NCBI RefSeq assembly: GCF_026552795.1
Contig: NZ_JANFPI010000003.1
Coordinates: 124,001-188,000, forward strand
Length of the DNA: 64,000 bases
Reading direction: 5' to 3'
Source of the DNA: Ectorhizobium quercum
Lineage (GTDB): Bacteria; Pseudomonadota; Alphaproteobacteria; Rhizobiales; Rhizobiaceae
The notes under the pieces are model-generated. The model saw only the letters and a list, made by a program, of their open reading frames with translations, was not told where the DNA came from and did no database searches. Shown piece after piece: positions 9,339 to 30,576 of the stretch; the stretch's first letter is position 1; every line of letters begins with the position of its first letter. Position numbers and translations under genes: made by a program.

Positions 9339-9350
9339 GGTCTCATCTCC

Positions 9351-10298: not shown

Positions 10299-10323
10299 CT
10301 CTAAGTCTCCGTCCTTGACATTA

Positions 10324-10341: not shown

Positions 10342-10382
10342 AAAGACGCGACTTTTCCTGTCGAGAGCAAGACGAGAGAACT

Positions 10383-12317: not shown

Positions 12318-12992
12318 TCATTCCTCGACGACCAGCCCCTTGGCCTTCAGCACGGCTTCGAGCTTGCTGACCTCGACGACCGACTTGCCGGCCTTGTAGG
12401 CCGCAATATAGCCGGCCTCGGCATCCTCGCGCTCCTGGGACAGGCGGGCCACCTCCAGCGCCTCCTCGCGGCGAACGACGACCAGTCCGTCGGCATCGCC
12501 GACCACGATGTCGCCGGGATGGATCAGTTCGCCGCCGACCACGATGGAATCGTTGGTCGAGGTCAGCGTTTCCTTCACCGTGCCCTTGATGCAGAGGCTG
12601 AGCGAGAAGACCGGGAAGCCGAGTTCGCGCAATTGCAGCGAGTCGCGCACGCCGCTGTCCGTCACCAGCCCGCCGATACCCTTGGCGAGGCAGGCATTGG
12701 CGAGAACGTCGCCGAAGGAGCCGGCTTCCTCGTATTCGCCGGCCGAGACGACGATGATGTCGCCCGGCTGGGCATAATTGATGGCAAGCTGCAACATGAT
12801 GTTGTCGCGCGGCGCACAGCGCACCGTGAAGGCCGGCCCGCACAGTTTCATGCGATAGTCGACCGGCTTGATGCGCGACGACAGGGCACCTCTGCGGCCC
12901 TGCGCCTCGTGGATCGTGGCCGGCGAGAAGCGGGCCAGCGCATCGATCTCGGCCTGCGACGGCCGGAACGGCATTTTCTTGATATGGGTCAT
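12318..12992 (-). CDS. RraA-fold aldolase (4-carboxy-4-hydroxy-2-oxoadipate aldolase / oxaloacetate decarboxylase-like)
   Basis: A 224-residue protein of the RraA/MenG-like class II pyruvate aldolase family (LigK, GalC, HMG aldolase). GGLVTDSGVRDS carries the conserved Arg-Asp that binds substrate and divalent metal, and the N-terminal FSPATIHEAQGRRGAL is typical. It could cleave a 4-hydroxy-2-oxo acid to pyruvate plus a second acid, or decarboxylate oxaloacetate. GGGAGGAAAC directly precedes the ATG at 12992. It is the last gene of the minus-strand SDR-ABC transporter operon, 83 bp after the binding-protein gene with a hairpin between. A non-catalytic RraA-like role is less likely given the context. 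The real substrate is unknown. Confidence 0.83.
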   Translation of the reverse strand: MTHIKKMPFRPSQAEIDALARFSPATIHEAQGRRGALSSRIKPVDYRMKLCGPAFTVRCAPRDNIMLQLAINYAQPGDIIVVSAGEYEEAGSFGDVLANACLAKGIGGLVTDSGVRDSLQLRELGFPVFSLSLCIKGTVKETLTSTNDSIVVGGELIHPGDIVVGDADGLVVVRREEALEVARLSQEREDAEAGYIAAYKAGKSVVEVSKLEAVLKAKGLVVEE

Positions 12993-13075: not shown

Positions 13076-13912
13076 TCAGGGAATCGGATCGAATTCCAGT
13101 TCGGACAGCGACACGACCTTGTCGGTGCGGGTCATCTTGTATTCGGTGTCCTCGCCGAGCCACTTGTCCCAGATCTGGTTCAGTTCGCCCGACGTATCGA
13201 GCTTGCGTAGGATCTCGTTCACTTTCGTCGTCAGCGCCGGCTCGTCCTTCGCCATGCCGACGCCGATCGGCTGGTAGAGCATGGGTTCGGGGATCATGCG
13301 CATCTCCTTGCCCTTGGTCTTCGATTCGTTGACCAGCTTGGTGGTCGTCATCGTGTTGGCGACCATGCCGCGGGCCTTGCCCTGCTGCACGGCGAGATAG
13401 GCCGACGCCGTATCCTGGAAGGTCAGCGGTTCGGACTTGTTGAGCTTGATCGACATTTCGGAGGTCGAGCCCTTGGTGGAGGCCACGCGCTGGCCGACAT
13501 AATCGGCCTTGGTCTGGCCGGCATCGTCGGCGGGTACGATCAGCATTTCCTTGGCGAGATAATAAGGATCGCTGAACTCGATCTGTTCGGCGCGGCCCTG
13601 GGTGTAGGCGAGGTTGGCGACGGTGATGTCCACCCGGCCGAGCTTGACTTCCGGAACGCGGGCTTCGACCGACACCGGCTTGATTTCCACCCTGACGCCC
13701 AGTTCCTTGGCGATGGCGCCGCACAGATCGACGTCGAAGCCGACCATCTCGCGGGTCTTCGGATCGGGCGCGGCAAACGGCGGCACGTCGGCGAAAGTTG
13801 CGCAACGCAGCACCTTGTTCGCCATGATGGTGTCGAGGACATCGGCTTTCGCCTGGGTGGACAGCGCTGCTCCTGCCAGCATGGCACCGAGAATGATATG
13901 TTTGCACTTCAT
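13076..13912 (-). CDS. Polar amino-acid-type ABC transporter substrate-binding protein
   Basis: A 278-residue periplasmic binding protein (SBP family 3). A Sec signal peptide is visible (MKCKHIILGAMLAGAALSTQAKA, cleavage near residue 23). The mature part starts DVLDTIMANKVLRCATFADVPPF and includes MVGFDVDLCGAIAKELGVRV, typical of the family. The ATG at 13912 has AAGGAG upstream. Its partners are the ATPase 46 bp upstream in the operon and two permeases. The ligand cannot be read from sequence; the adjoining SDR and pyruvate aldolase suggest a hydroxylated acid or amino acid that feeds into pyruvate. Confidence 0.9.
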   Translation of the reverse strand: MKCKHIILGAMLAGAALSTQAKADVLDTIMANKVLRCATFADVPPFAAPDPKTREMVGFDVDLCGAIAKELGVRVEIKPVSVEARVPEVKLGRVDITVANLAYTQGRAEQIEFSDPYYLAKEMLIVPADDAGQTKADYVGQRVASTKGSTSEMSIKLNKSEPLTFQDTASAYLAVQQGKARGMVANTMTTTKLVNESKTKGKEMRMIPEPMLYQPIGVGMAKDEPALTTKVNEILRKLDTSGELNQIWDKWLGEDTEYKMTRTDKVVSLSELEFDPIP

Positions 13913-13958
13913 GACTGTTCTCCTTCGTTCTGGTTGATTGGCTGCATGTTGATGACGA

Positions 13959-14722
<764 letters not shown>

Positions 14723-14726
<4 letters not shown>

Positions 14727-15481
14727 GGCTGCTCCGTCGCATTGGAAGTGAGAGGAAGAGGGGCGGCATTGCGGCGCGGACCGAGCCCGGCCCGGCGACG
14801 GGTGATGCGCCGCTCCACGAAATTGGTCAGCCAGGTGAGCGACCAGCACAGCACGTAGTAGGTCATCGCCAGAATCAGGAAGACCTGGAACGGCTGCGTC
14901 AGGAGCATGTTGTTGACCTGGTTCGCCGCGAAGGTGAGATCCGGCACGTTGATGACGTAGCCCAGCGTCGTGTCCTTGATCGTCGCCACGAAGGTCGAGA
15001 GCATGCTGGGGATCATGTTGTAGAGCGCCTGCGGCAGAATGACGAAGCGCATGGCCCCGAAATAGCCGTGGCCGAGGGCGCGGGCCGCATCCATCTGGCC
15101 CTGGCCGAGGGCGACGATGCCTCCCCGGACGACCTCGCTGAGAAAGGCGCCCTGATAGATCACCAGCGTTATCAGCATGGTGAAGAAGCTCGGCACGTCG
15201 GCACCGGTGAGCAGCGGCACGAGGAAGTAGCACCACAGCACCAGCATCAGCAGCGGCACGCCGCGCGTCACATAGACGAGCACCGTCGCCGGCCAGCGCA
15301 CCAGCCGGAACTTGGACAGGCGGGCGAAGGCAAGCAGGATGGAGAAGGGAAAAGCCAGCACGATGGCGAGCGCGGACAGGATCAGCGTGTTGACGAGACC
15401 GCCTAGCGGGCCGTTCGGATATTGACCGATGAGCAGCAGAAGCCAGTATTCGTCGATGATGGAAATCATGTCGAAGATCAT
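14723..15481 (-). CDS. Amino-acid-type ABC transporter permease
   Basis: A 252-residue inner-membrane permease of the HisM/GlnP type. It has about five hydrophobic segments and the cytoplasmic coupling loop [23 protein letters not shown] take the ATG at 15481, which shares one base with the stop of the previous permease and has GGAGG 6 nt upstream; the GTG one codon earlier is too close to that site. The C-terminus (about 30 residues after [14 protein letters not shown]) is an ordinary cytoplasmic tail. It probably pairs with the other permease to make the channel. Confidence 0.88.
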
Positions 15482-16185
15482 CACCGGCCTCCATGCGCCG
15501 GATCGGCGCGCCAGGTCAGATAGGCGCCGAAGCCCATGATGATCAGTGAGAAAAACAGGTAGAGCACCGTGCCCACGAGGTAGATCTCGAAGGTCCGGAA
15601 GCTCAGGTTCTCGATCTCCTTGACCGCATGGCTGAGTTCCGGAGCGCCGATCACGATGGCAAGGCTGCTGTTCTTGAAGAGCGAAACGCTGTGGTTGATC
15701 AGGGCCGGCAAGGCATTGCGCACGCCCTGCGGCACCAGCACGAAACGCATGGCGGAAATGTAGCCGTGGCCGAGCGCCCGCGCGGCCTCCATCTGGCCGG
15801 GGCTGACCGAACGCAGGCCGGAGCGCAGGTCCTCGCTGAAATAGGCCGCCTGACAGAGCCCGAGACCGATGACCGCGAACATCATCTCGGCGGAATGCAT
15901 CGACAGCCAGGCGGAAACGGCGTCCGGCAGGATCGTGTAGATGCCGAAATACCAGAGCATGAGTTGCACCAGCGTCGGCACGTTGCGGTGATAGGACACG
16001 TAGGCCGCGACGACGGCATTGCCGATGCGCCCCGGCGAGAAGCGGATTGCCAGCAGCACGATGGCGAGGCTCATCGCCAGCAGCCAGGAGCCGATGGCGA
16101 TGATGAAGGTCATCTCGATGCCATGCAGCAGCATGCCCACATATTCAGGATTGCCGAGAATGGCGCCGAGATCGAAACCTTTCAC
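15481..16185 (-). CDS. Amino-acid-type ABC transporter permease
   Basis: A 234-residue permease with about five membrane segments and the coupling loop [22 protein letters not shown], which is nearly the same as in its partner. The start is the GTG at 16185, overlapping the SDR stop by 4 bp (GTGA), with GGGGGAGGGG just upstream. It is the second gene of the SDR-permease-permease-ATPase-binding protein-RraA operon. Confidence 0.88.
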
Positions 16186-16949
16186 GACCGCCCCTCCCCC
16201 AAGCCGCCGGGCTGCGGCCGCGCCGTCTGGAGACCGCCCATCACCTGAAGAGTCGGCGTGATCTCCATATGGCCGATATTGACGGCGACCGGCGCGGCGA
16301 TGGCGAAGGCGATGGCTTCCGCGATGTCTGCGGCCTGCGGCAGTTCGAAACCGTCGATGAAGCGCTCGCGGATCGAGGGATCGTCGCCGTGGACATGGTT
16401 GAAAATGTCGGTCGCCACGCGGCCCGGGCAGATCTCCGTCACCCGCACGCGCTTGCCGAACGTGTCGATGCGCAACTGGTTGGACAGCATGCTGACGGCG
16501 GCCTTGGTGGCGTGGTAGGTGGAATTGCCGCCGAAATTGTAGAGACCCGCGATCGAGGAGATGTTGACGACATGGCCGCGGTCGCGCGCCGCCATGCCGG
16601 GCACGATCAGCCGGCAGAGATGCAGCACCGCCCGCAGGTTGACGTCCACGAGAAGATCGATATCGCCGTCCTCGGCCTCGAGGAATTTCTTCGGGCGGTC
16701 GACGCCGGCATTGTTGACCAGAATGTCGAACTCGACCCGGCCGGCCAGCGCCGCCAGGGCGTCGCGGTCGGTGACGTCGATGACGTGGGGAATGCAGCCT
16801 GTCCGTGCCGCAAGCTCTTCCAGCGCGCTGGCGCTGCGGGCGACGGCATGCACCTCGATGTTCTCGCGGCGAAACCGCTCCACGATCGCAGCGCCGATGC
16901 CCCCGGATGCACCGGTCACAAGAGCCGTTTTATAATCGGAAAAAGACAT
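16182..16949 (-). CDS. NAD(P)-dependent short-chain dehydrogenase (serine/3-hydroxy acid dehydrogenase-like)
   Basis: A 255-residue SDR: TGASGGIG cofactor motif (13-20), NNAG (79-82), and the catalytic triad S132, Y145 and K149 (YHATK). GNSTYHATKAAVSMLSNQLR and CPGRVATDIF recall the YdfG group, which acts on serine, allo-threonine and 3-hydroxy acids. The ATG at 16949 is preferred over the GTG at 16955, since AAGGGGATAGG lies at normal spacing. It is the first gene of the ABC transporter operon, so it probably oxidises the imported compound. LysR boxes lie upstream, divergent from the regulator gene at 17211. Confidence 0.85.
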   Translation of the reverse strand: MSFSDYKTALVTGASGGIGAAIVERFRRENIEVHAVARSASALEELAARTGCIPHVIDVTDRDALAALAGRVEFDILVNNAGVDRPKKFLEAEDGDIDLLVDVNLRAVLHLCRLIVPGMAARDRGHVVNISSIAGLYNFGGNSTYHATKAAVSMLSNQLRIDTFGKRVRVTEICPGRVATDIFNHVHGDDPSIRERFIDGFELPQAADIAEAIAFAIAAPVAVNIGHMEITPTLQVMGGLQTARPQPGGLGEGRS

Positions 16950-17028
16950 TCTCACCTATCCCCTTATCGTTGACAGGCAGCTTAGCGAAGCTTTCCGCTT
17001 CTGCCTAAGACGGATTGAATCTGGATGG

Positions 17029-17043
17029 ATAAGGAAGCCTTAT
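17029..17043. promoter_or_regulatory. Perfect LysR-type box ATAAGG-N3-CCTTAT
   Basis: ATAAGGAAGCCTTAT is a perfect 15-bp palindrome containing T-N11-A (17030/17042), the usual core of LysR-type sites. It lies between the divergent SDR operon (start 16949) and the LysR gene (start 17211). Confidence 0.65.
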
Positions 17044-17210: not shown

Positions 17211-18116
17211 ATGGATATCAGGCGTCTCAGATCGTTCATCGTCATCGTGGATACGGGCAGCATCACCCGCGCCGCCGACGTGCTTCACATCGCCCAGCCC
17301 GCCCTCAGCCAGCAGCTCGCCACCCTTGAGGATCACTTCCAGCAGAAATTGCTCATCCGCAGCCAGCAGGGCGTGTCGATGACCGAGGCCGGGCGCGCGG
17401 TCTACCGCCACGCCCAGATCATCCTGAGGCAGATGGACCTGGCGCAGGCCGATGTGAAGGCGGCCGGGGCCTCGCTGGTCGGCCGGGTGTCGGTGGGCCT
17501 CGTGCCGTTCAGCAGTGCGGCAACCCTGTCCGCCGATCTGCTGATCGAGACCCGCAAGCGGCATCCGGGCATCCTGCTGCACCTTACGGAAAGCGTCGGG
17601 CAGACCTACAGCCAGATGATCATGAACGGCCGGCTGGAAATGGCGCTCATCCACGGTTCCGGCCCGATCAAGGGCGTCCGCTTCGAACCGCTCTTCGTCG
17701 AGGACTTCTATCTCGTGGCGCACAGCAGGTTCGGCATCGAGCCGGGCAGCCAGCCGCTGCCCATCGCCGCGATGGAGGACATGCCCCTGCTTCTGCCGCC
17801 ACCCTACAATTTCGTGCGCCGGGCCGTCGATCTGGCGTTCACAAGGGCGCGCGTGTCTCTGAACGTCGTGGCGGAAGTGGAGATTGTCCGCACGTTGGCC
17901 CGCGTCGTCAGCGACGGCATGGGCGCGACGATCATGCCGAAGGCGATCACCGAGCGCCTTCTGGCCGAATCGGGCGAGCCTCTCGTCGCCCGTCCGATCA
18001 CGCCCAAGATCGAGGAAACGCTTTCATTGTGCGTTTCCGACCAGAGCGAGCTGTCGGAACCGGCACTTGCGGTGAAATCCATTCTCATGGAACTCACCGC
18101 CCGCCTCAAGGCGTAA
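17211..18116 (+). CDS. LysR-family transcriptional regulator
   Basis: A 301-residue regulator with the N-terminal winged helix-turn-helix (about 3-60; RLRSFIVIVDTGSITRAADVLHIAQPALSQQ) and a LysR substrate-binding domain (about 90-295). The start at 17211 gives the standard MDIRRLRSFI beginning; a longer in-frame start at 17091 would add about 40 atypical residues. The N-terminus resembles the Nac/Cbl-like group. Being divergent from the SDR-ABC-RraA operon, and with two palindromic boxes in the shared intergenic region, it most likely controls that operon. The inducer is unknown. Confidence 0.9.
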   Translation: MDIRRLRSFIVIVDTGSITRAADVLHIAQPALSQQLATLEDHFQQKLLIRSQQGVSMTEAGRAVYRHAQIILRQMDLAQADVKAAGASLVGRVSVGLVPFSSAATLSADLLIETRKRHPGILLHLTESVGQTYSQMIMNGRLEMALIHGSGPIKGVRFEPLFVEDFYLVAHSRFGIEPGSQPLPIAAMEDMPLLLPPPYNFVRRAVDLAFTRARVSLNVVAEVEIVRTLARVVSDGMGATIMPKAITERLLAESGEPLVARPITPKIEETLSLCVSDQSELSEPALAVKSILMELTARLKA

Positions 18117-18129
18117 GCGCCGGCAGGTT

Positions 18130-19332
18130 TCAGTGCAGGTCGTTGCAGAACTGCGCGATGCGCGCGCAGGCTTCGTCGAGCCGGTCGAGGCTGGTGGCGT
18201 AGGAAATGCGGAAGAACGGGCTCATGCCATAGGCCGCGCCCTGCACGGTGGTGACGTGATGCTCGTCGAGCAGGGCCAGCACGAAATCCGTATCCGTCTC
18301 GATCCTGCGGCCGCCCTTGCTGGTCCTGCCGATCAGTTCCGCGATGTTCGGGAAAACGTAGAACGCGCCCTCCGGCTTGTGGCAGCGGATTCCCTCGATC
18401 TCGCCGAGCCGGGCCACCACGAAATCGCGGCGCTCCCGGTAGATCGCCGCCCGCTCCTTCAGGAGATCCTGCGGCCCGTCGAGCACGGCGGCGACGGCGG
18501 CCTGCGTGATCGTCGAGGTGCCGCCGCTGTTCTGGCCGTTAACGTTGCTGACGGCCTTGATCAGGTCCTTCGGACCGCCGCAGAAGCCGAGACGCCAGCC
18601 GGTCATCGCATAGGCCTTGGACGCGCCGTTGACGGTCAGCACACGGTCGTAAAGGCGCGGCTCGACCTCGGCGATGGTGCAGAATGCGAAGTCGTCATAG
18701 ATCAGGTGCTCGTACATGTCGTCGGTCATGATCCAGACATGCGGATGGCGCAGCATCACCTCGGCGATGGCCTTCATCTCGTCGCGCGAGCAGGCGGCGC
18801 CGGTCGGATTGTTCGGAAAGTTCAGGAACAGCCACTTGGTCTTCGGCGTGATGGCCGCGTCGAGATCCTCGGCGCGCAGCTTGAAGCCGTTCTGTTGCGG
18901 GCAATCGACGGCAACGGGAACGGCGCCGGCAAACCTGACGATATCCGCATAGCTGATCCAGGACGGCGACGGAATGACCACCTCGTCGCCCGGATTGCAG
19001 GTGGCGAGCACGGCGTCGAAGATGATCTGCTTGCCGCCGCCGGCCACGACGATCTGCTCCGGCTGGTAATCCAGATTGTTGTCGCGCCTGAACTTGCGGG
19101 CGATGGCCTCGCGAAGCGCCATCGTTCCGTCCAGCGGCGGATATTTGGTGTCGCCGGCAAGCGCCGCCGCATGGGCCGCCTCGATGGCGTTGGCAGGTGT
19201 GGGGAAATCGGGTTCGCCGGACGACAGGCTGATGACCTTGACGCCCTTGGCCGCAAGATCGCGGGCACGTTGCGTCATGGCAGCGGAAGCGGAGATGGAA
19301 ACGTTTTTCAGACGGTCGGCAATGGCGGGCAT
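18130..19332 (-). CDS. Class I/II pyridoxal-phosphate aminotransferase (AspC-like)
   Basis: A 400-residue fold-type I aminotransferase. The PLP-binding Lys is K239 in NGASKAYAMTGWR; N175 in NFPNNPTG, the Asp/Tyr pair in DDMYEHL, and the Arg near the C-terminus in FRISYA complete the aspartate-aminotransferase signature. The ATG at 19332 gives the usual MPAIADRLKNVSISASAAM beginning; an ATG at 19365 is an alternative, and neither has a strong ribosome-binding site. It lies 52 bp after pxpA and is probably the last gene of the carboxylase operon. It could transaminate the amino acid made by ring opening. Its exact amino donor or acceptor is unknown. Confidence 0.86.
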   Translation of the reverse strand: MPAIADRLKNVSISASAAMTQRARDLAAKGVKVISLSSGEPDFPTPANAIEAAHAAALAGDTKYPPLDGTMALREAIARKFRRDNNLDYQPEQIVVAGGGKQIIFDAVLATCNPGDEVVIPSPSWISYADIVRFAGAVPVAVDCPQQNGFKLRAEDLDAAITPKTKWLFLNFPNNPTGAACSRDEMKAIAEVMLRHPHVWIMTDDMYEHLIYDDFAFCTIAEVEPRLYDRVLTVNGASKAYAMTGWRLGFCGGPKDLIKAVSNVNGQNSGGTSTITQAAVAAVLDGPQDLLKERAAIYRERRDFVVARLGEIEGIRCHKPEGAFYVFPNIAELIGRTSKGGRRIETDTDFVLALLDEHHVTTVQGAAYGMSPFFRISYATSLDRLDEACARIAQFCNDLH

Positions 19333-19384
19333 GAGCGTTGATCTCGGTTGAACGGGGTTGGACATACGGATGCGGGCGCGAAGC

Positions 19385-20152
19385 TCATCGCAGGATGCGG
19401 GAGACGGGCGCGACCTCGCCGCCGGCCGCCTCGATCTCGCTGCGGACGAGGCGCGCAAGGTCGAGCGAGCCGGGCGTGTCGCTATGGACCAGAATGGACC
19501 GCGCCCGCATCGGAATGATCGCACCGTCGATGGCGGCGACGGTGCCTTCGACGAGGAACCGGCGGACACGGGCGCGCACGGATGCCTCGTCCTTGACGAG
19601 CGCGCCCGGCTGGCCACGCGGGACAAGCGTGCCATCGGCCCGATAGGCGCGGTCGGCGAGGAACAGCGTCAGCGTCTTCAGCCCCGCCGCCTGCGCCTCG
19701 GCCTCGATGATGCTGCCGGCCGTGCCGAACACGATCAGTTCCGGATCGATCGTCCTGATCGCCGCCATCATCGAGGCGGCGAGCGCCGCATCGCGATTGA
19801 CCATGTTACCCATCGCCGCGTGGAAGCTCACATGCGAGACCCGCACGCCCTCCGCCCGGGCAATCGCCGTCAGCGCGCCGAGCTGGTAGAGCATCTGCTG
19901 GCGCAGCTCGTCGGCGCCGAACGGCAGTTCGCGGCGCCCAAAGCCCTGCCGGTCCGGCAGGCCGGGATGCGCCCCGATGTCCACGCCGCGGTCGCGGGCC
20001 AGACGCACCATGCGCGCCATCGTATCGGCGTCGCCGGCATGGAAGCCGCAGGCGATGTTGGCCGAAGAGACGACATCCATCATCGCCTCGTCGTCGCAGA
20101 GCCGGTAGGGGCCGAAGCCCTCGCCCATGTCGGAATTCAGGTCGACTTTCAT
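19385..20152 (-). CDS. pxpA: 5-oxoprolinase subunit A / LamB-YcsF family protein
   Basis: A 255-residue LamB/YcsF protein; in E. coli and B. subtilis PxpA works with PxpB and PxpC in ATP-dependent opening of 5-oxoproline (pyroglutamate). MKVDLNSDMGEGFG at the N-terminus, ANIACGFHAGD, and IGAHPGLPD are hallmark sequences. AAGGAG precedes the ATG at 20152. It follows pxpC by 29 bp. Because the operon also encodes biotin carboxylase and biotin carrier protein, the assembled enzyme may be a biotin-dependent carboxylase or lactam hydrolase with a different substrate. The name is by homology only. Confidence 0.88.
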   Translation of the reverse strand: MKVDLNSDMGEGFGPYRLCDDEAMMDVVSSANIACGFHAGDADTMARMVRLARDRGVDIGAHPGLPDRQGFGRRELPFGADELRQQMLYQLGALTAIARAEGVRVSHVSFHAAMGNMVNRDAALAASMMAAIRTIDPELIVFGTAGSIIEAEAQAAGLKTLTLFLADRAYRADGTLVPRGQPGALVKDEASVRARVRRFLVEGTVAAIDGAIIPMRARSILVHSDTPGSLDLARLVRSEIEAAGGEVAPVSRILR

Positions 20153-20181
20153 GACGCTTCTCCTTCCCCTGAAATCTCAGG

Positions 20182-21174
20182 TCATTGCATCGCGACGAGC
20201 GACTGGCGGACCAGACGCAGGGTTTCGCGCACATCCGCGACATAGCCGGCGACGGCTCGTTCGGCGGCCCGGGCCTCGGCATGCGTCACCGGCGTGAACC
20301 GCAGCATCGAACCGATGCGCGCCTGCCCCAGGCGCCAGAGATCCGCCTCCACGACGCCGGCGATCTTCGGATAGCCCCCGGCGGTATTGGCGTCGCTCAT
20401 CTGGACGATCGGCTCGCCGGCCGGCGGCACCTGGATCACGCCGGGCACGACCCCGTGCGAGCGCATTTCGACCGGCGCCACCGGGCGGATCGGATCGCCG
20501 CTCAGGCGATAGCCCGTGCGGTCGCTGCGCGACGAGATCTTCCACGGCTGGTTCCAGAAACGGTCCGCATCCGCGCCGAAGAGATCGTGCTCACCGGCCG
20601 GCAGGGCGCGAATGAGCAGGGCCCCGTCCCCGGCGACCGGAAAGGCTTCTTTCAGGGAGATGGCCGGCGGCACGACGCCGATGCCGCCTTCGGGCACGAA
20701 ACAGCCGGCGGACGCGCCGGCGTCGATCCTGTCGCCCGCTGCCAGGAACCGCCCGTCGACCCCGCCGAAGCCGCCGCGAAGCGAGGTGCTGCGCGAGCCC
20801 ATGACCGGCGCGACATCGACGCCGCCGGCCGGGCACAGATAGGCCCTGGCCTCCTTCAGCGGCGGCGACAATTCCAGCACCTGCCCGGCCGCGACCGCAA
20901 CCGCCCACCAGGGAGCCACGTCGACGCCGTCGAGCCGTGCCCGGCAATCCGCGCCCGTCAGCGCGAAGACACCCGGCGCCGTGAAGCGGACGCGGAACGG
21001 GAAGGTCTGGATTTCCAGACCGGCCATCCCCGGCTCGTTCCCAGCCAGCAGATTGCCGACGGTCAGCGCCAGCGGGTCCATCGCGCCGCTCGCCGTCACC
21101 CCGATATTGCGATAGCCGGGCCGCCCCAGATCCTGAACCGTGTTGAGCGGGCCGGTTTCGACGATCTCGATCAC
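20182..21174 (-). CDS. pxpC: Biotin-dependent carboxyltransferase / 5-oxoprolinase subunit C
   Basis: A 330-residue KipA/allophanate-hydrolase-subunit-2/PxpC protein. The N-terminus VIEIVETGPLNTVQDLGRPGY is characteristic; GASGAMD-like (TASGAMDPLAL) and the later RSHGVVPGVIQVPPAGEPI are family landmarks, including the biotin-carboxyltransferase-like fold. The start is the GTG at 21174, overlapping the pxpB stop by 4 bp. The C-terminal tail (about 300-330, EARAAERAVAGYVADVRE) is helical. In urea amidolyase the matching domain is the carboxyltransferase, which suits the presence of accB and accC in the same operon. Confidence 0.88.
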   Translation of the reverse strand: MIEIVETGPLNTVQDLGRPGYRNIGVTASGAMDPLALTVGNLLAGNEPGMAGLEIQTFPFRVRFTAPGVFALTGADCRARLDGVDVAPWWAVAVAAGQVLELSPPLKEARAYLCPAGGVDVAPVMGSRSTSLRGGFGGVDGRFLAAGDRIDAGASAGCFVPEGGIGVVPPAISLKEAFPVAGDGALLIRALPAGEHDLFGADADRFWNQPWKISSRSDRTGYRLSGDPIRPVAPVEMRSHGVVPGVIQVPPAGEPIVQMSDANTAGGYPKIAGVVEADLWRLGQARIGSMLRFTPVTHAEARAAERAVAGYVADVRETLRLVRQSLVAMQ

Positions 21175-21881
21175 AGCTCGATCCTTTCGGGGCGGAAACG
21201 CACGATGTCGCCCGGCGCCATGACGGCAGGGGAAGCGGCGGCGGGATCGAACATCGTGAGATCGGCGAAGCCGATGGAGTTCCATCCGTTCGGCCCGGTC
21301 AGCACGGCCACGCCCGTCTGCATGCCGCCGATGGTGACGCATCCGCGCGCCATGTTGAGGGAGGGAACGGTCTTGCGCGGCATGTGGATGCGCGGATCGA
21401 GCCCGTGCAGATAGCCGAAGCCGGGCGCGCTTCCCAATGCGAACACGCGGTAGGTGCCTTCATGGTGGATGCGCACCACCTCCCGGTCGCTGAGGCCGCT
21501 CAGGTCGCAGAGCGCGGCGAGATCCGTGGCATGCTCGCCGCCATAGGTGACGGCGATCTCGATTTCCCGACCGGCCAGATCGATGCCCCGCGCGCGCCTC
21601 CATTCATCCTGAAGACCGGCGACGACGGCATCCGGCGCATCCGGCGTTTCCTTGAGGATCACCAGCAGGTTGGTCATGCCCGGCACGACTTCGGCGACAT
21701 CCTCGCGCAGCGCCAGCAGGCGGGAAAGCGCCCATATGCGCCGCTGGTTCGGCAGATCGAACAGGCCCGGCGCTTCCAGCAGGAAGGCCCGTGCGCCGAT
21801 GAAGGAAATCATGGCACGTTCGTCCGCATTCGGCACAACCGATGCCGGCGACGGAAAGACGGCTGTTTTCAATACGCTCAT
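21171..21881 (-). CDS. pxpB: 5-oxoprolinase subunit B (KipI / allophanate hydrolase subunit 1 family)
   Basis: A 236-residue PxpB/KipI protein that normally partners PxpC. YGGEHATDLAALCDLSGLS and YRVFALGSAPGFGYLHGLD are family landmarks, and the C-terminus MAPGDIVRFRP is typical. It overlaps the apo-BCCP gene by 4 bp (ATGA at 21878) and pxpC by 4 bp, so the three are translationally coupled. The first 20 residues (MSVLKTAVFPSPASVVPNAD) are poorly conserved; the ATG at 21810 (MISFIGARAF) is another possible start, but the overlap supports 21881. Confidence 0.87.
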   Translation of the reverse strand: MSVLKTAVFPSPASVVPNADERAMISFIGARAFLLEAPGLFDLPNQRRIWALSRLLALREDVAEVVPGMTNLLVILKETPDAPDAVVAGLQDEWRRARGIDLAGREIEIAVTYGGEHATDLAALCDLSGLSDREVVRIHHEGTYRVFALGSAPGFGYLHGLDPRIHMPRKTVPSLNMARGCVTIGGMQTGVAVLTGPNGWNSIGFADLTMFDPAAASPAVMAPGDIVRFRPERIEL

Positions 21882-22348
21882 CTGGCTTGCTCCATAGTCA
21901 GGATGGTCTCGCCATAACCGACCAGATCGCCGGCCCGGACGTGCAGGTCCCCGGCGACGGCGTCCTCGCCGGCGACGACCGGCAGAAGCACCGGCCCGAT
22001 CTCGATGAAGCCGACGACCGCGCCCCGGCCGAGCCGTTGCCCCTTGCGCGGCGGCGCCGCATCGACGGCGCCCGGATGCACATCCCTGAACCGGCCTGCC
22101 GCGGGCGCCTTCACGCTGCCCGCCGCCCGGGATGCCGGCTCGGCGGCCTGCGAAACGCCCGCTCGGCCCCCGGCCGTCGCAGCGACCACGCCTTCGAGAA
22201 CGATTTTCAGCGTCTGCCCGTCGGCGGCGATGATTTCAAGCTCGCGCGCGCCGGACGTTTCGAGCCATCCACTCAGCAGGGAAACGACGGCGGGATCGGT
22301 CAGGTCGCCGATGGTGTTCCTGTCCTTCGAGCGGTCACGCCTCGGCAT
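21878..22348 (-). CDS. BCCP-like biotinyl/lipoyl-domain protein lacking the biotin lysine
   Basis: A 156-residue second biotin-carboxyl-carrier-like protein. Residues 1-55 resemble the AccB N-terminal region (LTDPAVVSLLSGWLE...LEIIAADGQTLKIV). Residues about 78-156 resemble the biotinyl barrel (VKAPAAGRF...GQRLGRGAVVGFIE...AGDLVGYGETILTME). Where AccB has the hairpin EAMKV, this protein has EIGPV (116-120), so the biotin-accepting Lys is replaced by Pro. It cannot be biotinylated at the normal position. AGGAGGTGG precedes the ATG. It overlaps accC by 14 bp and pxpB by 4 bp. It may be a structural or assembly subunit. Decay is less likely, as the frame is intact and tightly coupled. Confidence 0.8.
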   Translation of the reverse strand: MPRRDRSKDRNTIGDLTDPAVVSLLSGWLETSGARELEIIAADGQTLKIVLEGVVAATAGGRAGVSQAAEPASRAAGSVKAPAAGRFRDVHPGAVDAAPPRKGQRLGRGAVVGFIEIGPVLLPVVAGEDAVAGDLHVRAGDLVGYGETILTMEQAR

Positions 22349-23732
22349 GGTCCACCTCCTTCAGCCGCTTTTCCAGATGGTGGATATCGACGCTTCCCGC
22401 ACCGAAGTCGGGATCGGCGAAAATCCGCTCATGCAGGGGAATGTTGGTGGAGATCCCCTCGATCCGCGTTTCGGACAGCGCCACCCGCATGCGCCGGATG
22501 GCCTCGTCCCGCGTCGGCGCATGGACGATCAGCTTGGCGATCAGGGAATCGTAATAGGGCGAGACCCGGTAGCCGTCGGCAACATGCGTGTCGACACGAA
22601 TGCCAGGACCGGCCGGGAAACGCGCCCGGGCGATGCGGCCGGGCGACGCGGCGAAGGACACCGGGTCCTCGGCATTGATCCGGCATTCGAAGGCATGGCC
22701 CGCGGCCACGCCGCCAAAGCGGGCGGCATCGAGAGGCTCGCCCTGCGCCGCGCGCAACTGCTCATGGACCAGATCGACGCCTGCCGTCATCTCCGTCACC
22801 GGGTGCTCGACCTGAAGGCGCGTGTTCATTTCGATGAAGAAGAATTCGCCGTTCTCATACAGGAACTCGAAGGTGCCGACGCCGCGATAGCCGATCTGGC
22901 GACAGGCTTCGGCACACCGTTCGCCGATCGCCTCCGCGAGCGCCGGGGCGATGCCGGGCGCGGGTGCTTCCTCCACCACCTTCTGGTGACGGCGCTGCAC
23001 CGAACAGTCGCGATGGCCGACCCACACGGCATTGCCGTGCATATCGCACAGGACCTGAAACTCCACATGACGGGGCCGTTCCAGGAACTTTTCCATGTAG
23101 AGTTCCGGCTTGCCGAAGGCACGGCGCGCTTCCTCGCGGGTGATCGCGACGGCATCGGCGATCTCGCCGCCGCCGCGCACGACCCGCATGCCGCGACCGC
23201 CGCCGCCGCCGGCCGCCTTGACGATGACCGGATAACCGATGCCCTCGGCGATGGCCCGCACGGCATCCATGTCGTCCGGCAGAGGCTCGCCCGGACCCGG
23301 CACGCAGGGCACGCCGGCCGCCATCATCGCCCGCTTGGCGGCGATCTTGTCACCCATGATGCGGATAGCCCCGGCCGGCGGTCCCACGAAGACCAGACCG
23401 GCCTTTTCCACGGCCTCGGCGAAATCGGCGTTCTCGGAGAGAAAGCCGTAGCCCGGATGCACGGCCTCGGCACCCGTCACCCGCGCGGCGAGGAGGATCG
23501 CCGCCTGATTGAGATAGCTCCTGCCCGGGGCCGACGGGCCGATACACAACGGACCGCCATCGGCGGGCGCCGGCTGCTCAGCGCCGTCCGCCTCGGAAGC
23601 GATCAGGATCGGCCGCAGGCCGAGTTCGAGACAGGCGCGCCGCACGCGCAGGGCGATCTCGCCGCGATTGGCGATCAGCACGGAACCGAAGCGGCGTCCG
23701 GTCTGCTCGGCCGGGAAGGACGGTCCGGTCAT
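22335..23732 (-). CDS. accC: Biotin carboxylase
   Basis: A 465-residue ATP-grasp biotin carboxylase that carboxylates the biotin of its carrier protein using ATP and bicarbonate. SVLIANRGEIALRV (17-30), HPGYGFLSEN (92-101), the flexible Gly loop AAGGGGGRGM (173-182), the RHVEFQVLCD segment, and EMNTRLQVEHPVTE are diagnostic. It sits in a dedicated operon with pxpABC, separate from the fatty-acid accBC expected elsewhere in the genome, so it probably serves only this system. The ATG at 23732 shares one base with the accB stop; the N-terminal 15 residues are a little longer than usual. Confidence 0.92.
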   Translation of the reverse strand: MTGPSFPAEQTGRRFGSVLIANRGEIALRVRRACLELGLRPILIASEADGAEQPAPADGGPLCIGPSAPGRSYLNQAAILLAARVTGAEAVHPGYGFLSENADFAEAVEKAGLVFVGPPAGAIRIMGDKIAAKRAMMAAGVPCVPGPGEPLPDDMDAVRAIAEGIGYPVIVKAAGGGGGRGMRVVRGGGEIADAVAITREEARRAFGKPELYMEKFLERPRHVEFQVLCDMHGNAVWVGHRDCSVQRRHQKVVEEAPAPGIAPALAEAIGERCAEACRQIGYRGVGTFEFLYENGEFFFIEMNTRLQVEHPVTEMTAGVDLVHEQLRAAQGEPLDAARFGGVAAGHAFECRINAEDPVSFAASPGRIARARFPAGPGIRVDTHVADGYRVSPYYDSLIAKLIVHAPTRDEAIRRMRVALSETRIEGISTNIPLHERIFADPDFGAGSVDIHHLEKRLKEVDHAEA

Positions 23733-24160
23733 CACCCAAGCTCCACGAGAGGCTGGCCGGCATCGACCTCCTGGCCGTCCTGAAAGAGGACCTGCCGGAC
23801 GACGCCCGCAAAGGGCGCGGGAACCGTGGTGAAAACCTTCATCGCCTCGACGATGCAAAGCCCCTGCCCCGCCTCGACGGCATCTCCCGGCTTCACGAGC
23901 GGTTGGGCGCCGGGACTGTTCGACTGATGAGCGATGCCCGAAACGGGCGAGCGGACCAGCTTGCGATGCGCGTCGGCGTCTTCGGGTGCGTCGGCTTCGG
24001 CAGCAGCGATGTCCGCGACCGCCAGCGGCGATGCGGCGGCCGGTCCACCGGACGGCGCGTTGCGAATGATGACGGTCGTGCCATCCTGGCTGACCGTCAG
24101 TTCCGACACATTCGAACTCCCGACAAAGTCAAGAAGTGTTTTGATCTTTTGCAGATCCAT
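23732..24160 (-). CDS. accB: Biotin carboxyl carrier protein
   Basis: A 142-residue BCCP. The N-terminal helix MDLQKIKTLLDFVGSSNVSELTV and a Pro/Ala-rich linker (about 36-65) lead to the C-terminal biotinyl barrel with CIVEAMKV, in which K108 is the biotinylation site. GGGGAG precedes the ATG at 24160, which starts the operon accB-accC-BCCP2-pxpB-pxpC-pxpA-aminotransferase. It delivers carboxybiotin, probably to the PxpB/PxpC carboxyltransferase. The 225-bp region upstream should hold the operon promoter, but I see no convincing -35/-10 pair there. Confidence 0.92.
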   Translation of the reverse strand: MDLQKIKTLLDFVGSSNVSELTVSQDGTTVIIRNAPSGGPAAASPLAVADIAAAEADAPEDADAHRKLVRSPVSGIAHQSNSPGAQPLVKPGDAVEAGQGLCIVEAMKVFTTVPAPFAGVVRQVLFQDGQEVDAGQPLVELG

Positions 24161-24385: not shown

Positions 24386-25891
24386 TCACTGGACCGGCTT
24401 CATGTCGAAGGCCCTCACCCAGTCGTCGCCGCGCGCCGCCCATTCGATGCGCTTCGACACGCCATAGGTCGCGGGCATCAGATAGAGGAAGACCGCCGCC
24501 GCCTCGTCGCACATCAGCCTGGTCGCGTCGGCATAGAGCGCGTTGCGGGCGTCCTTGTCGGTCGTCACGCGGGCCTTGTCCAGAATCGCGCCGAATTCGG
24601 CATTGTTCCAGTAGTCGTAGACATTGCCCGGGGCGAACATCGTCAGCATGCCGTCGGCATCGATGGTCGGCCATGCGAGACCCTGCACGGCAAGCTGGGC
24701 GAGGTCGCGGGCGCGCAACTGCTTGTTCATGAAAGCGCCGAACTCGATCTCGGTGATCTTCACCTTCAGGCCGACCTCCTGCAATTGCGATGCGATGATC
24801 TGGGTGACTTCGTCGCCTTGCAGGTAGGTCGCCGTCGGAACCTCGATCTCGATCTCCTGGCTCAGGTCGACGCCGGATTCGGCGAGAAGCTCGCGCGCCT
24901 TTTCCGGATCGTAGGGATAGGGCTTCAAATCCGGATTGTAGCCCACATAGGGCTCGGAAAGGAGCTGGCAATTGGCCACCGTCGCCTTGCCGTCGAAGAT
25001 CGCGGAAACGATGCCTTCCTTGTCGATGGCATAGTTCAGCGCCTGACGGAAGCTGCGATTTTCCATCGGCGTCTTCTGATGGTTGATCTTGGCCAGCATC
25101 ATGCGGATGGAATCGATCGAATCTGCGCTGGCTTCGCCCGAGGCGTTGATCCGCGCGATCTCGGTGGTCGGAACGCCCGTCACCAGATCGATCTCGCCGG
25201 CCATCAGCGCGGCGATGCGGCTGCCGCTTTCCGGGATGGTGCGGAACGTGACCCTGCGGAAATCCGCCGCCTCGCCCCAGTAGTCCGGATTGGCTTCGAG
25301 GGTGATGTGATCGCCGGGCACGTTCTCGGCCACCTTGTAGGGACCGCCGGACATGGTTTCGGTCGCCGGATTGTGGCTCTTCGTCCATTCCGGCGGCAGC
25401 AGGAAGAACATCGAAAGCTGATCGGCGAAGGCCGGATAGGGCTCGGAGGTCTTCACGTCGAGGGTCAGGTCGTCGACGACGACCGCTTCCGAAACCAGCG
25501 AGAACCAGCCGGCGATACGGGCGCCGACATCCTTGTCCAGCACCCGGTCGAGGTTCCACTTCACCGCCGCCGCGTCGAGCTTCTCGCCGTTCGCGAAGGT
25601 TGCGCCGGGCGTGAGCTTGAAGCGCCAGGTGTTGTCGTCAACCATCTCCCAGGACTGCGCCAGCGACGGTTGCAGCTTGAGGTCGGGGCCGCGCAGGATC
25701 AGCGCCGGATAGATGTGGCTGATCACGCTCAGGTCCGAGCCGACCGAGGCCGACATGTGCGGATCGAGCGTATTCACGGCAACGCGCAGCGCAATCGTCA
25801 CCGAATCCGCACTCTGCGCGTTCGCCATCGACGTCGCGAACATGAAGCTGGTGATGCCAGCCAGTAGGAATGCACGGGTATCATGAAGCAT
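24386..25891 (-). CDS. Peptide/dipeptide ABC transporter substrate-binding protein
   Basis: A 501-residue family 5 binding protein (DppA/OppA type). The signal peptide is MLHDTRAFLLAGITSFMFATSMANA. Family landmarks are NTLDPHMSASVGSDLSVISHIYPALI, WRFKLTPGATFANGEKLDA, FRQALNYAIDKEGIV and the C-terminal WNNAEFGAILDKAR. Members bind peptides, opines, nickel, glutathione or other small molecules, so the ligand is open. It is the last gene of the minus-strand transporter operon and is followed by a clear terminator. The hydrolase at the head of the operon hints at a peptide- or amide-like ligand. Confidence 0.9.
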   Translation of the reverse strand: MLHDTRAFLLAGITSFMFATSMANAQSADSVTIALRVAVNTLDPHMSASVGSDLSVISHIYPALILRGPDLKLQPSLAQSWEMVDDNTWRFKLTPGATFANGEKLDAAAVKWNLDRVLDKDVGARIAGWFSLVSEAVVVDDLTLDVKTSEPYPAFADQLSMFFLLPPEWTKSHNPATETMSGGPYKVAENVPGDHITLEANPDYWGEAADFRRVTFRTIPESGSRIAALMAGEIDLVTGVPTTEIARINASGEASADSIDSIRMMLAKINHQKTPMENRSFRQALNYAIDKEGIVSAIFDGKATVANCQLLSEPYVGYNPDLKPYPYDPEKARELLAESGVDLSQEIEIEVPTATYLQGDEVTQIIASQLQEVGLKVKITEIEFGAFMNKQLRARDLAQLAVQGLAWPTIDADGMLTMFAPGNVYDYWNNAEFGAILDKARVTTDKDARNALYADATRLMCDEAAAVFLYLMPATYGVSKRIEWAARGDDWVRAFDMKPVQ

Positions 25892-25922
25892 GGCATATCT
25901 CTCAGGTTGAGGATGGACGGAC

Positions 25923-26827
<905 letters not shown>

Positions 26828-26831
<4 letters not shown>

Positions 26832-27844
26832 GCCTCGGCTCCGTCGCGGGCGGCCAGGGCCGCCGGAAGATCGTACCATGCCGCCACCAGATGGCCCTCG
26901 ACGCTGCCCGGCACCGGCCGCAGCAGCGGCACCTCGTCGAAACAGCGCGGCGTCGCAAACTCGTTGCGCGGCGCGAAAGGGTCTCCTTTCGGCGGCACCA
27001 GCAGGTCGGGCGGCTGCCCGGGGATCTGATAGAGCCGCCGCTGGCTGCGCGCCTGCCCATGCGGAAGCGAACGCAGCAGGCCCCAGGTATAGGCGCTGTG
27101 CGGCTGGTGGAAGATCGCATCAACCGGGCCGCGCTCCATGATCCGGCCGCCATACATGACCTGAACGGTATCCGCGAGGCCGGCGACCACGCCCATGTCA
27201 TGGGTGATCCAGATGACCGTGGTGCCGAACCTGTCCTTGAGATCGCGCACGAGATCGAGAACCTGCGCCTGCACGGTGACGTCGAGAGCGGTGGTGGCCT
27301 CGTCGGCGATCAGCAGGCGGGGATTGCAGGCGATGCCGATGGCGATCATCACCCGCTGCCGCATGCCGCCCGAAAACTGGAACAGATACTGGCCGATCCG
27401 TTCCTCGGGATGGGGAATGCCGACCAGCGCGAGCAGTTCGACGGCGCGCCTGCGGGCCGCGGAACGGGACAGTTTCTGATGCCGGATCAACGGTTCCGTG
27501 AGCTGACGCTCGACGGTCAACACCGGATTGAGCGCCGTCATCGGGTCCTGGAACACGAAGCCGATCCGGCTGCCGCGGATATCGCGCAGCTCGCGCTCGG
27601 ACATCGCGAGCAGGTCGCGGCCCTGAAACAGCACCTGCCCGGCGACCACGCGTCCGGGCGGACAGGGCACCAGTCCCAGCATGGCCAGCGCGTGAACGCT
27701 CTTGCCGGAGCCGCTTTCACCGACGATCCCCAGGGTCTCGCCCTCGTGCAGCATGTAGGACACGTCGTTGACGGCGTGAACCGTGCCGGCCGGCGTGTCG
27801 AACACGACACTGAGATTGCGGACTTCCAGCAGAGGCGTGCCCAT
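26828..27844 (-). CDS. Oligopeptide ABC transporter ATPase (OppD/DppD-like)
   Basis: A 338-residue ATPase: Walker A GESGSGKS near 42-49, Q-loop [12 protein letters not shown], signature [12 protein letters not shown], Walker [14 protein letters not shown]-loop ITHDMGV. The C-terminal extension after [16 protein letters not shown] has a Cys in [10 protein letters not shown], which in relatives can belong to an oligopeptide-ATPase metal site; only one Cys is present in that segment. The ATG at 27844 shares one base with the permease stop. It works with the OppF-like subunit. Confidence 0.91.
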
Positions 27845-28698
27845 CACAGGTTCCTTTGGCGAGGGTCGAAGTAATCGCGAAGCCAGTCGCCGACCAGATT
27901 GACGCTCAGAACCGTCAGGACGATGGCAAGGCCCGGGAAGGTGACGACCCACCATGCGGTCGACATATAGGTCCGTCCGTCCGCGAGCATCCGGCCCCAG
28001 CTCGGCGCCGGCGGTTGCAGGCCGAGGCCCAGAAAGCTCAGCGCCGCATCCATGATGATGATGCGGGCCAGTTCCAGCGTGGCCACGACGACGGCCGGCG
28101 TCAGGATGTTCGGCAGGATGTGGCGGAACATGATCCGCGCGGTCGACGCGCCGATCGCCTGGGTCGAAAGCACGAATTCCCGCTCCCGGACCGACAGGAC
28201 CTGGCCGCGCACGATGCGCGCATAGCGGATCCAGCTCGTCAGGGCGAGAACGATCACCAGATTGGTCATCGACGGCCCGAAGGAGGCGACGACCAGCAGC
28301 GCCAGCAGCATCAGCGGCAGCGCCAGCTGGATGTCGACCAGGCGCATCAGCAACGCATCCAGGAAGCCGCGGAAATAGCCGGCCACGATGCCGAGGACGA
28401 CGCCGGCGATGCCGCCCAGGATCACAGCCATTCCGGCGATGGCGAGCGTCGCGCGGGAGCCGTATATGATCCGGCTGAGAATGTCGCGGCCGAGCTGATC
28501 GGTGCCGAGCGGATGGGGACCGGGGCTGAAAGGCCCGCTCCAGGTCGGCGGCAGCAGCCTCGCCGTCAGGCTGCCCCTGACCGGATCGGGAAGGCCGAGC
28601 CACGGGGCCGTCAGCGCCAGCGCGACGAACAGGATCAGCACGATCCAGCCAACGAGACCGGCACGGGAGCGAAGCACGCTTGAGAGAAAGTGTTTCAC
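27844..28698 (-). CDS. Dipeptide-type ABC transporter permease (DppC-like)
   Basis: A 284-residue permease with an N-terminal OppC segment (RSRAGLVGWIVLILFVALALTAPWL), PLGTDQLGRDILSRIIYGSR, and about six membrane helices; AIGASTARIMFRHILPNILTP is the ATPase-coupling loop. I chose the GTG at 28698, 11 bp after the partner's stop, with AGGA 8 nt upstream. A longer in-frame start at 28746 would overlap the DppB-like gene. It forms the channel with the DppB-like protein. Confidence 0.88.
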   Translation of the reverse strand: MKHFLSSVLRSRAGLVGWIVLILFVALALTAPWLGLPDPVRGSLTARLLPPTWSGPFSPGPHPLGTDQLGRDILSRIIYGSRATLAIAGMAVILGGIAGVVLGIVAGYFRGFLDALLMRLVDIQLALPLMLLALLVVASFGPSMTNLVIVLALTSWIRYARIVRGQVLSVREREFVLSTQAIGASTARIMFRHILPNILTPAVVVATLELARIIIMDAALSFLGLGLQPPAPSWGRMLADGRTYMSTAWWVVTFPGLAIVLTVLSVNLVGDWLRDYFDPRQRNL

Positions 28699-28708
28699 GT
28701 CCAAAATC

Positions 28709-29629
28709 CTACCGGCGCTCGCGAATACGCGGATCGAGGAAACCATAGGTGAGGTCGATCAGCAGGTTGATGGCGACGAAGATGAAGGCGATCAGCATCA
28801 CGCCGGCCTGGATGACGGGGAAATCCTTGGCCTCGATGGCCTGGATGATGAGGCGCCCGATGCCCGGCCAGGCGAAGACCGTTTCCGTGACGACGGACCC
28901 GCCCAGCAACTCGCCCATGACGATCCCGATCATCGTGACGACCGGGATGAGCGCGTTGCGCGCCACATGCCAGACGAAGATCGTTCCCGGCAGGAGCCCC
29001 TTGGCCCGCGCCGTGCGCACATAGTCCTCGCGCAGCACGTCGAGCAGGCTGGAGCGCAGCAGGCGGGCGATCGAGGCGCAGACGAAGATCGCCAGCGTCA
29101 TGGCCGGCAGGACGGTATGGGCCAGCGTGCCCCGTCCGCCGGTCGGCAGCCATCCAAGCTCGACCGAGAAGAACAGGATGAACATGATGCCCAGCCAGAA
29201 CACCGGCGTCGCCTGCCCGAGAAGCGCGAAGACCATGACGATCAGTTCCGCCAGCCTGCCGCGGTTGAGCGCAGCGACCGTTCCCGCGACCAGCCCGAAT
29301 ATCGTGCCCAGCACGATGGCCGAGAACGCCAGTTCCAGCGTCGCCGGCATCCGTTCCAGCACCACTTCCATCGCCGGACGCTGGAACTGGAAGGACATGC
29401 CGAAATCGCCGCGCACGATCATGGTCAGGTAATGTATGTACTGCTCGACCACCGGCCGGTTGAGACCGAGCTGGTCGCGCAGGGCATCGAGCTGGTCGGC
29501 CGTCGCGCCGATCGGCAGAAGCAGCGTCGCCGGATCGCCCAGCACACGCGTGACGAAGAAGACGATGGTCAGGACACCCCACACCGCAATGATGGCCTCG
29601 GCAATCTTGGACAGGAGGTAGCGAACCAT
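28709..29629 (-). CDS. Dipeptide-type ABC transporter permease (DppB-like)
   Basis: A 306-residue permease with the DppB N-terminus MVRYLLSKIAEAIIAVWGVLTIVFF, the periplasmic loop QLGLNRPVVEQYIHYL, and the coupling loop RTARAKGLLPGTIFVWHVARN; ETVFAWPGIGRL is a family landmark. The ATG at 29629 has GGAGAG 6 nt upstream. It follows the hydrolase gene by 17 bp, supporting one operon of hydrolase, DppB, DppC, OppD, OppF and binding protein. Confidence 0.9.
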   Translation of the reverse strand: MVRYLLSKIAEAIIAVWGVLTIVFFVTRVLGDPATLLLPIGATADQLDALRDQLGLNRPVVEQYIHYLTMIVRGDFGMSFQFQRPAMEVVLERMPATLELAFSAIVLGTIFGLVAGTVAALNRGRLAELIVMVFALLGQATPVFWLGIMFILFFSVELGWLPTGGRGTLAHTVLPAMTLAIFVCASIARLLRSSLLDVLREDYVRTARAKGLLPGTIFVWHVARNALIPVVTMIGIVMGELLGGSVVTETVFAWPGIGRLIIQAIEAKDFPVIQAGVMLIAFIFVAINLLIDLTYGFLDPRIRERR

Positions 29630-29646
29630 TCCGGTCTCTCCAGAGC

Positions 29647-30486: not shown

Positions 30487-30576
30487 GAGCTTTCCTTTCA
30501 AAAAGGCCGGGTGCAAGCCCCGCGATCAGAGCATTCCGGCTTGCCTGACCGATGCCCGAGCACATTTCCTAACTTA

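Follow-up and report, generated by a model that had tools for sequence, protein, structure and literature searches.

A PxpABC operon with its own biotin carboxylase and a non-biotinylated twin carrier in Ectorhizobium quercum: a candidate biotin-dependent lactam-opening system

Two described enzymes are closest to the locus discussed here. The prokaryotic 5-oxoprolinase is built from the protein families PxpA, PxpB and PxpC; the phosphorylation by PxpBC that is generally attributed to PxpABC is assumed, according to a 2026 paper on this enzyme (PMC13274462). Urea carboxylase, which also occurs as part of urea amidolyase, combines a biotin carboxylase, a carrier and a carboxyltransferase (CT) with A-B and C-D subdomains. 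The CT site of urea carboxylase accommodates both biotin and urea. Components of both systems are found side by side in one operon of Ectorhizobium quercum, located in a stretch of 64,000 nucleotides (contig NZ_JANFPI010000003.1, positions 124,001 to 188,000; hereafter the window). With somewhat more confidence than doubt, this operon is read here as encoding a predicted biotin-dependent lactam-opening enzyme that would head a nitrogen-regulated catabolic pathway.

The operon occupies 18130-24160 on the minus strand, exactly the ends that an earlier sequence-only reading had given, and consists of seven genes rather than the six proteins counted there, a second AccB-like gene having been missed. 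It starts with a biotinylable carrier (BCCP, 23732-24160; Biotin_lipoyl, 74.7 bits), in which the motif EAMK can be read, and a biotin carboxylase paralogue (AccC, 22335-23732; PRK08591, 623.6 bits against a cut-off of 597). These are followed by an AccB-like protein without the biotin lysine (dBCCP, 21878-22348; recognised by profile, tree, AlphaFold model and fold match), PxpB with CT subdomains C and D (21171-21881; TIGR00370, 169.7 bits against 145.55) and PxpC with CT subdomains A and B (20182-21174, GTG start; CT_A_B, 277.8 bits). PxpA (19385-20152) matches the LamB_YcsF family, with residues 109, 163, 165 and 221 changed, and a class I aminotransferase (18130-19332), whose closest solved structure is aspartate aminotransferase A (6f77, E 2.8e-147), closes the operon. 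The overlaps amount to 1 (BCCP/AccC), 14 (AccC/dBCCP), 4 (dBCCP/PxpB) and 4 bases (PxpB/PxpC), and gaps of 29 and 52 bases precede PxpA and the aminotransferase, respectively. The Pfam families Biotin_lipoyl, Biotin_carb_N/C, CT_C_D, CT_A_B, LamB_YcsF and Aminotran_1_2 are each matched above their cut-offs. Structures of PxpA and PxpB relatives have also been solved from Pyrococcus horikoshii (PH0986 and PH0987, respectively).

That accB and accC head a PxpABC operon had been claimed before and is borne out by a carrier that can be biotinylated and by a dedicated AccC, which shares 53% identity with the AccC from a further AccB-AccC pair in the genome and 48% with that of a third locus. The motifs GGGGRG, RDCSVQRRHQK and FIEMNTRLQVEHPVTE are found in this AccC. 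Both proteins stay below the equivalog models for acetyl-CoA carboxylase (BCCP, 96.7 bits against 115.2 for TIGR00531; AccC, 603.9 against 626.5 for TIGR00514), and neither AccA nor AccD appeared among the window genes scanned, no search having been aimed at them. PxpA, PxpB and PxpC families are all present together, as in the prokaryotic 5-oxoprolinase, and PxpC (283.8 bits) falls below the NCBIfam PxpC equivalog NF045499 (cut-off 500 bits). PxpC is homologous to the CT domain of urea carboxylase (3va7, E 6.6e-30); judged by this homology, PxpBC is that domain split into two chains. Compared to urea carboxylase, however, the components are separate proteins, a second and non-biotinylated carrier is present, and PxpA is the candidate hydrolase. 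The cut-off of TIGR02712 (1303.85) is reached by none of the parts (40.8, 447.6 and 158.7 bits), and the allophanate hydrolase amidase of urea amidolyase was absent from the window genes scanned, again with no search aimed at it. Compared to plain PxpABC, the system differs by its own BCCP, AccC and dBCCP, by its partner genes (aminotransferase, SDR, RraA and ABC transporter) and by changes at PxpA K109, E163 and C221, PxpB F151 and R174, and PxpC L258.

A PxpB match of at least 65% identity was found in 11 of the 199 genomes of the family (the window's own included; the 34 best places were examined as loci). All 11 loci carry the same six genes, BCCP-AccC-dBCCP-PxpB-PxpC-PxpA, so the operon is not a chance arrangement. 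For the wider comparison, a profile of the PxpC alignment was scanned against genome contigs; the best 80 of 586 confirmed relatives were used as loci, and the sample is therefore drawn towards the query. The 63 places matching PF02682 contributed 40 of the 43 with frames below 1000 aa besides the window's (G076, G134 and G158 being left out) and 10 of the 19 with frames above 1000 aa, the urea carboxylase type. The clade of the window's PxpBC (support 99.9), called the Twin clade after its possession of both carriers, which were separated by motif, comprises 84 further loci in 37 gene orders; the window and the duplicates L193 and L197 were left out of this number, and L138, L145, L153 and L199 were included. 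Many of these loci come from close relatives and are not independent. Members are found in Rhizobiaceae, Acetobacteraceae, Burkholderiales, Methylobacterium, Microvirga, Skermanella, Pseudomonas japonica, Pantoea and others.

Within the 84 loci, dBCCP occurs in 82, BCCP and PxpA in 80 each, AccC in 70, the aminotransferase in 63, SDR in 59, a LysR regulator in 56, an amino-acid binding protein in 50 and RraA in 46. The aminotransferase, with which the earlier reading had ended the operon, is hence a conserved partner. In 49 plain loci the same models found BCCP, AccC, aminotransferase, SDR, LysR and binding protein in none, RraA in 2 and PxpA in 44; these zeros lean low, because the partner models were seeded from the window (PxpT from L042) and used with strict cut-offs. 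Three loci with a dBCCP call (L047, L072 and L108) were nevertheless counted among the plain ones, by locus number; the carrier-like proteins they encode are longer.

The most constant partner of the clade PxpBC is dBCCP, and its biotin donors, BCCP and AccC, seem replaceable, as three loci suggest. Pantoea L145 has dBCCP and misses the dedicated BCCP and AccC. In Rouxiella L153 these two are also absent, and dBCCP and PxpA lie on another contig; in both genomes an AccB-like gene adjoins an AccC elsewhere. The third, L138 from a Propionivibrio metagenome-assembled genome, is the only clade case without dBCCP, and its one strong AccB-like match adjoins its AccC. A fourth locus with missing genes, L199, is cut by a contig end. 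As a separate observation, the clade loci L094, L095, L101-L105 and L186 contain BCCP, dBCCP and PxpABC with no AccC in the stretch examined; the genomes of L095 and L105 have an AccC elsewhere.

The N-terminal part of dBCCP itself is AccB-like, and its biotinyl-like domain has EIGP in place of EAMK. The window protein gave no Pfam or NCBIfam match at E 0.001; its counterpart in L042 matches both Biotin_lipoyl and the BCCP model. An AlphaFold model (mean pLDDT 81.9, from a 36-row alignment) has the E. coli BCCP 4hr7_G as best solved match (Z 13.6, with a root mean square deviation of 1.4 for 77 residues), practically level with 1bdo (Z 13.5); the match covers the C-terminal domain, the N-terminal part lying outside it. 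A lysine at the biotin column is found in 0 of 94 dBCCP rows, partly a result of how the rows were sorted, and motifs around GPLLLPV and VGYG are peculiar to them. A decaying gene was considered and rejected: the ratio of nonsynonymous to synonymous substitutions (dN/dS) is 0.10-0.53 in 14 pairs, so dBCCP is evolving under constraint. For BCCP it is 0.06-0.34 in the 12 of these pairs that were computable. The closest known idea is offered by the plant BADC proteins, which dBCCP resembles. These are BCCP-like, have lost the biotin motif, interact with biotin carboxylase (BC) and BCCP, are thought to aid assembly, and are described as unique to the plant enzyme (PMC11926652). In contrast to BADC, dBCCP is bacterial and located in a PxpABC operon, and its binding to BC and BCCP is putative. 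A single literature search aimed at a bacterial case of a BADC-like non-biotinylated carrier found none.

In the proposed mechanism, AccC would spend ATP to form carboxybiotin on BCCP. Subsequently, PxpBC would transfer the carboxyl group to a lactam resembling 5-oxoproline, at its ring nitrogen, and PxpA would hydrolyse the activated ring, with loss of CO2. The dBCCP may serve as an assembly subunit by which AccC and the carrier are docked on PxpBC, a role like that of BADC in the plant enzyme. The aminotransferase would then convert the product to a 2-oxo acid, to be cleaved by an RraA-type aldolase. N-carboxylation followed by PxpA hydrolysis would be the simplest use of the ATP, parallel to the conversion of urea to allophanate. 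Several observations favour this reading. BCCP (80/84) and AccC (70/84) accompany the clade and none of the 49 plain loci, and biotin-linked PxpBC is found on several branches and is homologous to the CT domain of urea carboxylase. The dBCCP is kept in 82 of 84 loci, even without the dedicated BCCP and AccC, and under constraint. The aminotransferase, SDR, RraA and transporter genes recur in shuffled orders with a shared dyad, and PxpA residues kept in all plain rows are changed in the island type (see below).

Three further layouts, here named type F, type K and Psychrobacter-like, also join AccC and BCCP to PxpA, PxpB and PxpC. Type F (L050, L054, L060, L065, L066 and L069) has PxpA, PxpB-PxpC and, unlike the window, AccC and BCCP fused into a single frame (888 aa in L065, 583-610 aa in the other five loci) without a twin. 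Component A of the 5-oxoprolinase from P. putida is quoted in another paper as having polypeptides of 64 and 51 kDa (PMC8453981). Set beside type F, these sizes hint at a possible biotin-linked type, a loose lead only. Type K (L077, L078 and L079) has PxpA, a short BCCP (85-95 aa, EVMK), AccC, PxpB and PxpC, forms a separate deep branch and likewise differs from the window by having no twin; P. aeruginosa PA0492-PA0496 is presumably a case of this type. The nine Psychrobacter-like loci (L042, L120-L127) carry AccC and both carriers, and differ from the window in their plain-type PxpA, PxpB and PxpC residues and in a transporter like that of L042, present in eight of the nine. This transporter belongs to the Nramp family, that of PxpT and YcsG; PxpT is required for growth of C. 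glutamicum on 5-oxoproline, and YcsG of B. subtilis is reported as required (PMC13274462). The Psychrobacter-like loci are therefore named as candidate biotin-dependent 5-oxoprolinases acting on 5-oxoproline itself. The aminotransferase, SDR and RraA were not found in any of the three layouts at the thresholds used.

The sequence-only reading had called the substrate and reaction undescribed. This holds for the function of the system only; its layout has parallels in the three types above and in Lp. pentosus, where an extra BCCP/BC copy and pxpB/pxpC are both noted and not joined (PMC12427679). No paper on a biotin-linked PxpABC was found in a literature search whose coverage did not extend to most subscription journals. 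Of the interpretation offered, the dedicated carboxylase and the departure from a plain 5-oxoprolinase stand; the carboxyl transfer itself we infer. That reading had overlooked dBCCP, the genes for SDR, RraA aldolase and transporter, and the LysR-type site that the two halves share.

In the PxpBC tree, biotin-linked forms (urea carboxylase, type K, type F, Psychrobacter and the Twin clade) lie on several branches with plain ones between them. A single branch for the PxpBC of the Twin clade and Psychrobacter was rejected (approximately unbiased (AU) test, p 0.0018). A separate origin of the Psychrobacter dBCCP was hinted at by FastTree (support 0.63), but a constraint placing all dBCCP together scored better (p 0.82). 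One origin of dBCCP is thus not rejected by this test, which had few columns and long branches, and the two carriers may have been exchanged as a pair between lineages of PxpBC. The window's assembly contains three PxpBC sets, namely the window operon, the plain L043 and the type K L078 (also L211), a statement that carries some doubt because of the listed assembly contamination of 8.85%. L043 is a pxpBC pair without carboxylase genes on another contig, with pxpA about 4 kb away. Together with the residues lost from PxpA, it agrees with the earlier claim that the operon does not encode plainly a 5-oxoprolinase.

These residues were compared between loci with at least two of aminotransferase, SDR and RraA in the stretch examined (island loci, L153 added by hand) and the others. 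For PxpA we used K109, E163 and C221, a criterion of our own and not a published one. Each of them is present in all 62 rows from plain, Psychrobacter, F and K loci, in 2 of 63 rows from island loci, and in 14 of 18 clade rows without an island, a set into which cut stretches place some island loci. The window PxpA has S, L and L at these positions. PxpB F151 is found in 49/49 plain rows and replaced by S or A in 85/85 clade rows; R174 is kept in 46/49 plain and 10/10 urea carboxylase rows and in only 3/65 island rows. PxpC L258 (45/49 plain) is Q in 84/85 clade rows. Since residues invariant in plain PxpA are changed here, the substrate is probably not 5-oxoproline itself. We take this to mean that there are two grades, biotin-linked enzymes still using 5-oxoproline and an island type with another substrate. 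With a 3noj-type aldolase acting after an aminotransferase, a 4-hydroxy-2-oxo acid would be split. This prompts the guess, the least certain step, that the substrate is a 4-hydroxylated (perhaps 4-alkyl) 5-oxoproline. This draws on the chemistry of 4-hydroxyglutamate and of HMG/CHA aldolases and on the logic of aminotransferase-aldolase pathways.

The conserved unit extends past the operon to 12318. The LysR regulator is NAC-like (17211-18116, plus strand; PRK11233 NAC, 326.7 bits against 309). The SDR oxidoreductase (16182-16955; adh_short, 156.7 bits), an amino-acid ABC transporter with two permeases, an ATPase and a binding protein (13076-16185; binding protein SBP_bac_3, 13076-13912) and an RraA-like aldolase (12318-12992; PF03737, 131.9 bits; closest solved structure 3noj at E 6.2e-50, which likewise has GVRD) are on the minus strand. 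The transporter order is annotated alike in L008-L010, and the window permeases and ATPase were assigned by frame reading and similarity; solved relatives of the binding protein, general amino-acid binders and the cyclohexadienyl dehydratase line, give no hint of its substrate. Plasmids from Shinella sp., R. sophoriradicis and S. chiapasense (L008-L010) carry the whole row from 12318 through the operon.

Between the LysR and SDR genes lies the dyad ATAAG-N5-CTTAT (17029-17043), a probable LysR-type site that has no other exact copy in the window. The following counts are not independent, many of the regions being from closely related organisms. Of 40 LysR/SDR intergenic regions, 37 contain ATA-N9-TAT (1.9 on average and at most 6 after shuffling) and 11 the exact dyad (0 after shuffling). 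Upstream of BCCP, ATA-N9-TAT is present at 9 of the 61 loci (1.4 on average and at most 6 after shuffling) and the exact dyad at 8 (0.005 on average and at most 1), and in all nine a LysR gene is directly upstream of BCCP. ATA-N9-TAT, the form of a NAC-type site, is read here as the probable LysR site joining both halves into one regulon.

Dipeptide-type ABC genes upstream (24386-28746) were considered as part of the system and rejected: they do not adjoin the operon in L008, L009 and L010, and a GC-rich hairpin followed by TTTT separates them from it. In the wider stretch 24386-30516, ABC transporter genes of the peptide/nickel type are accompanied by a family 5 binding protein. The stretch also has an alpha/beta hydrolase (29647-30516) near the proline iminopeptidase family, below the cut-off of that model; it is not conserved beside the operon in L008-L010. 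Beyond the aldolase, L-idonate 5-dehydrogenase-like and 2-hydroxyacid dehydrogenase genes are found at 8307-10394, with matching neighbours plus a gluconokinase in S. chiapasense (L010).

Several points weigh against a carboxybiotin-dependent enzyme. Plain PxpABC reportedly works without dedicated carboxylase genes, and that of B. subtilis is said to have been reconstituted from recombinant subunits. AccC is missing in 14 of the 84 clade loci (one of them cut by a contig end), and L138 has no carrier of either kind and no AccC nearby. Among solved structures, PxpC matches the plain E. coli YbgK first. At PxpB 151, all 10 urea carboxylase rows have D where the clade has S or A, and only 5 PxpB and 26 PxpC positions, many of them glycines, are at least 85% conserved across every group including urea carboxylase. 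This conservation is, as far as sequences can tell, a sign of common descent and not of the reaction; homology is no proof of chemistry. Lastly, no copy of the dyad lies upstream of the window's own BCCP. Caprolactamase is reported to require bicarbonate in a role left undecided, and its authors find it not similar to PxpABC (PMC8453981).

The CT domain shared with urea carboxylase and the PxpA and PxpB residues deviating from the 5-oxoprolinase type would also suit a true carboxylase, in which PxpBC yields a stable carboxylated product, as urea yields allophanate, and PxpA hydrolyses another bond, such as that of a ureido compound or hydantoin. This seems unlikely, since the aminotransferase and the 3noj-type aldolase suit a glutamate-like product better and PxpA is still a clear LamB_YcsF protein. 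More doubtful is an ordinary ATP-using PxpABC, with BCCP and AccC serving another reaction or just boosting the supply of carboxybiotin. PxpA and PxpB do exceed the cut-offs of named 5-oxoprolinase models, and the loci missing AccC fit it, but BCCP and dBCCP stay with PxpBC across the 37 gene orders, and carrier and twin occur on two PxpBC lineages whose union was rejected. That dBCCP is a brake displacing BCCP from AccC and so lowering activity, a role also proposed for BADC, is improbable, as dBCCP is kept in L145 and L153, two loci that lack a dedicated BCCP and AccC, and the plant paper argues against the inhibitory model (PMC11926652).

The biotin-dependent lactam-opening enzyme proposed here may be extended, speculatively and with much more doubt than confidence, to PxpBC in general. 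PxpBC would then be carboxybiotin-dependent throughout, the ATP of 5-oxoprolinase would be spent by biotin carboxylase, and plain PxpABC would borrow the housekeeping AccB and AccC; the lineage of the present operon would in addition have a bacterial docking subunit of the BADC kind and act on a new substrate, probably 4-hydroxylated 5-oxoproline. If the proposed reading is right, lactam rings are opened by biotin chemistry, and the ATP use called assumed in the PxpABC paper would gain a concrete mechanism (PMC13274462). Non-biotinylated carrier subunits would then exist in bacteria as well, and many genes now named 5-oxoprolinase would receive another substrate and another pathway.

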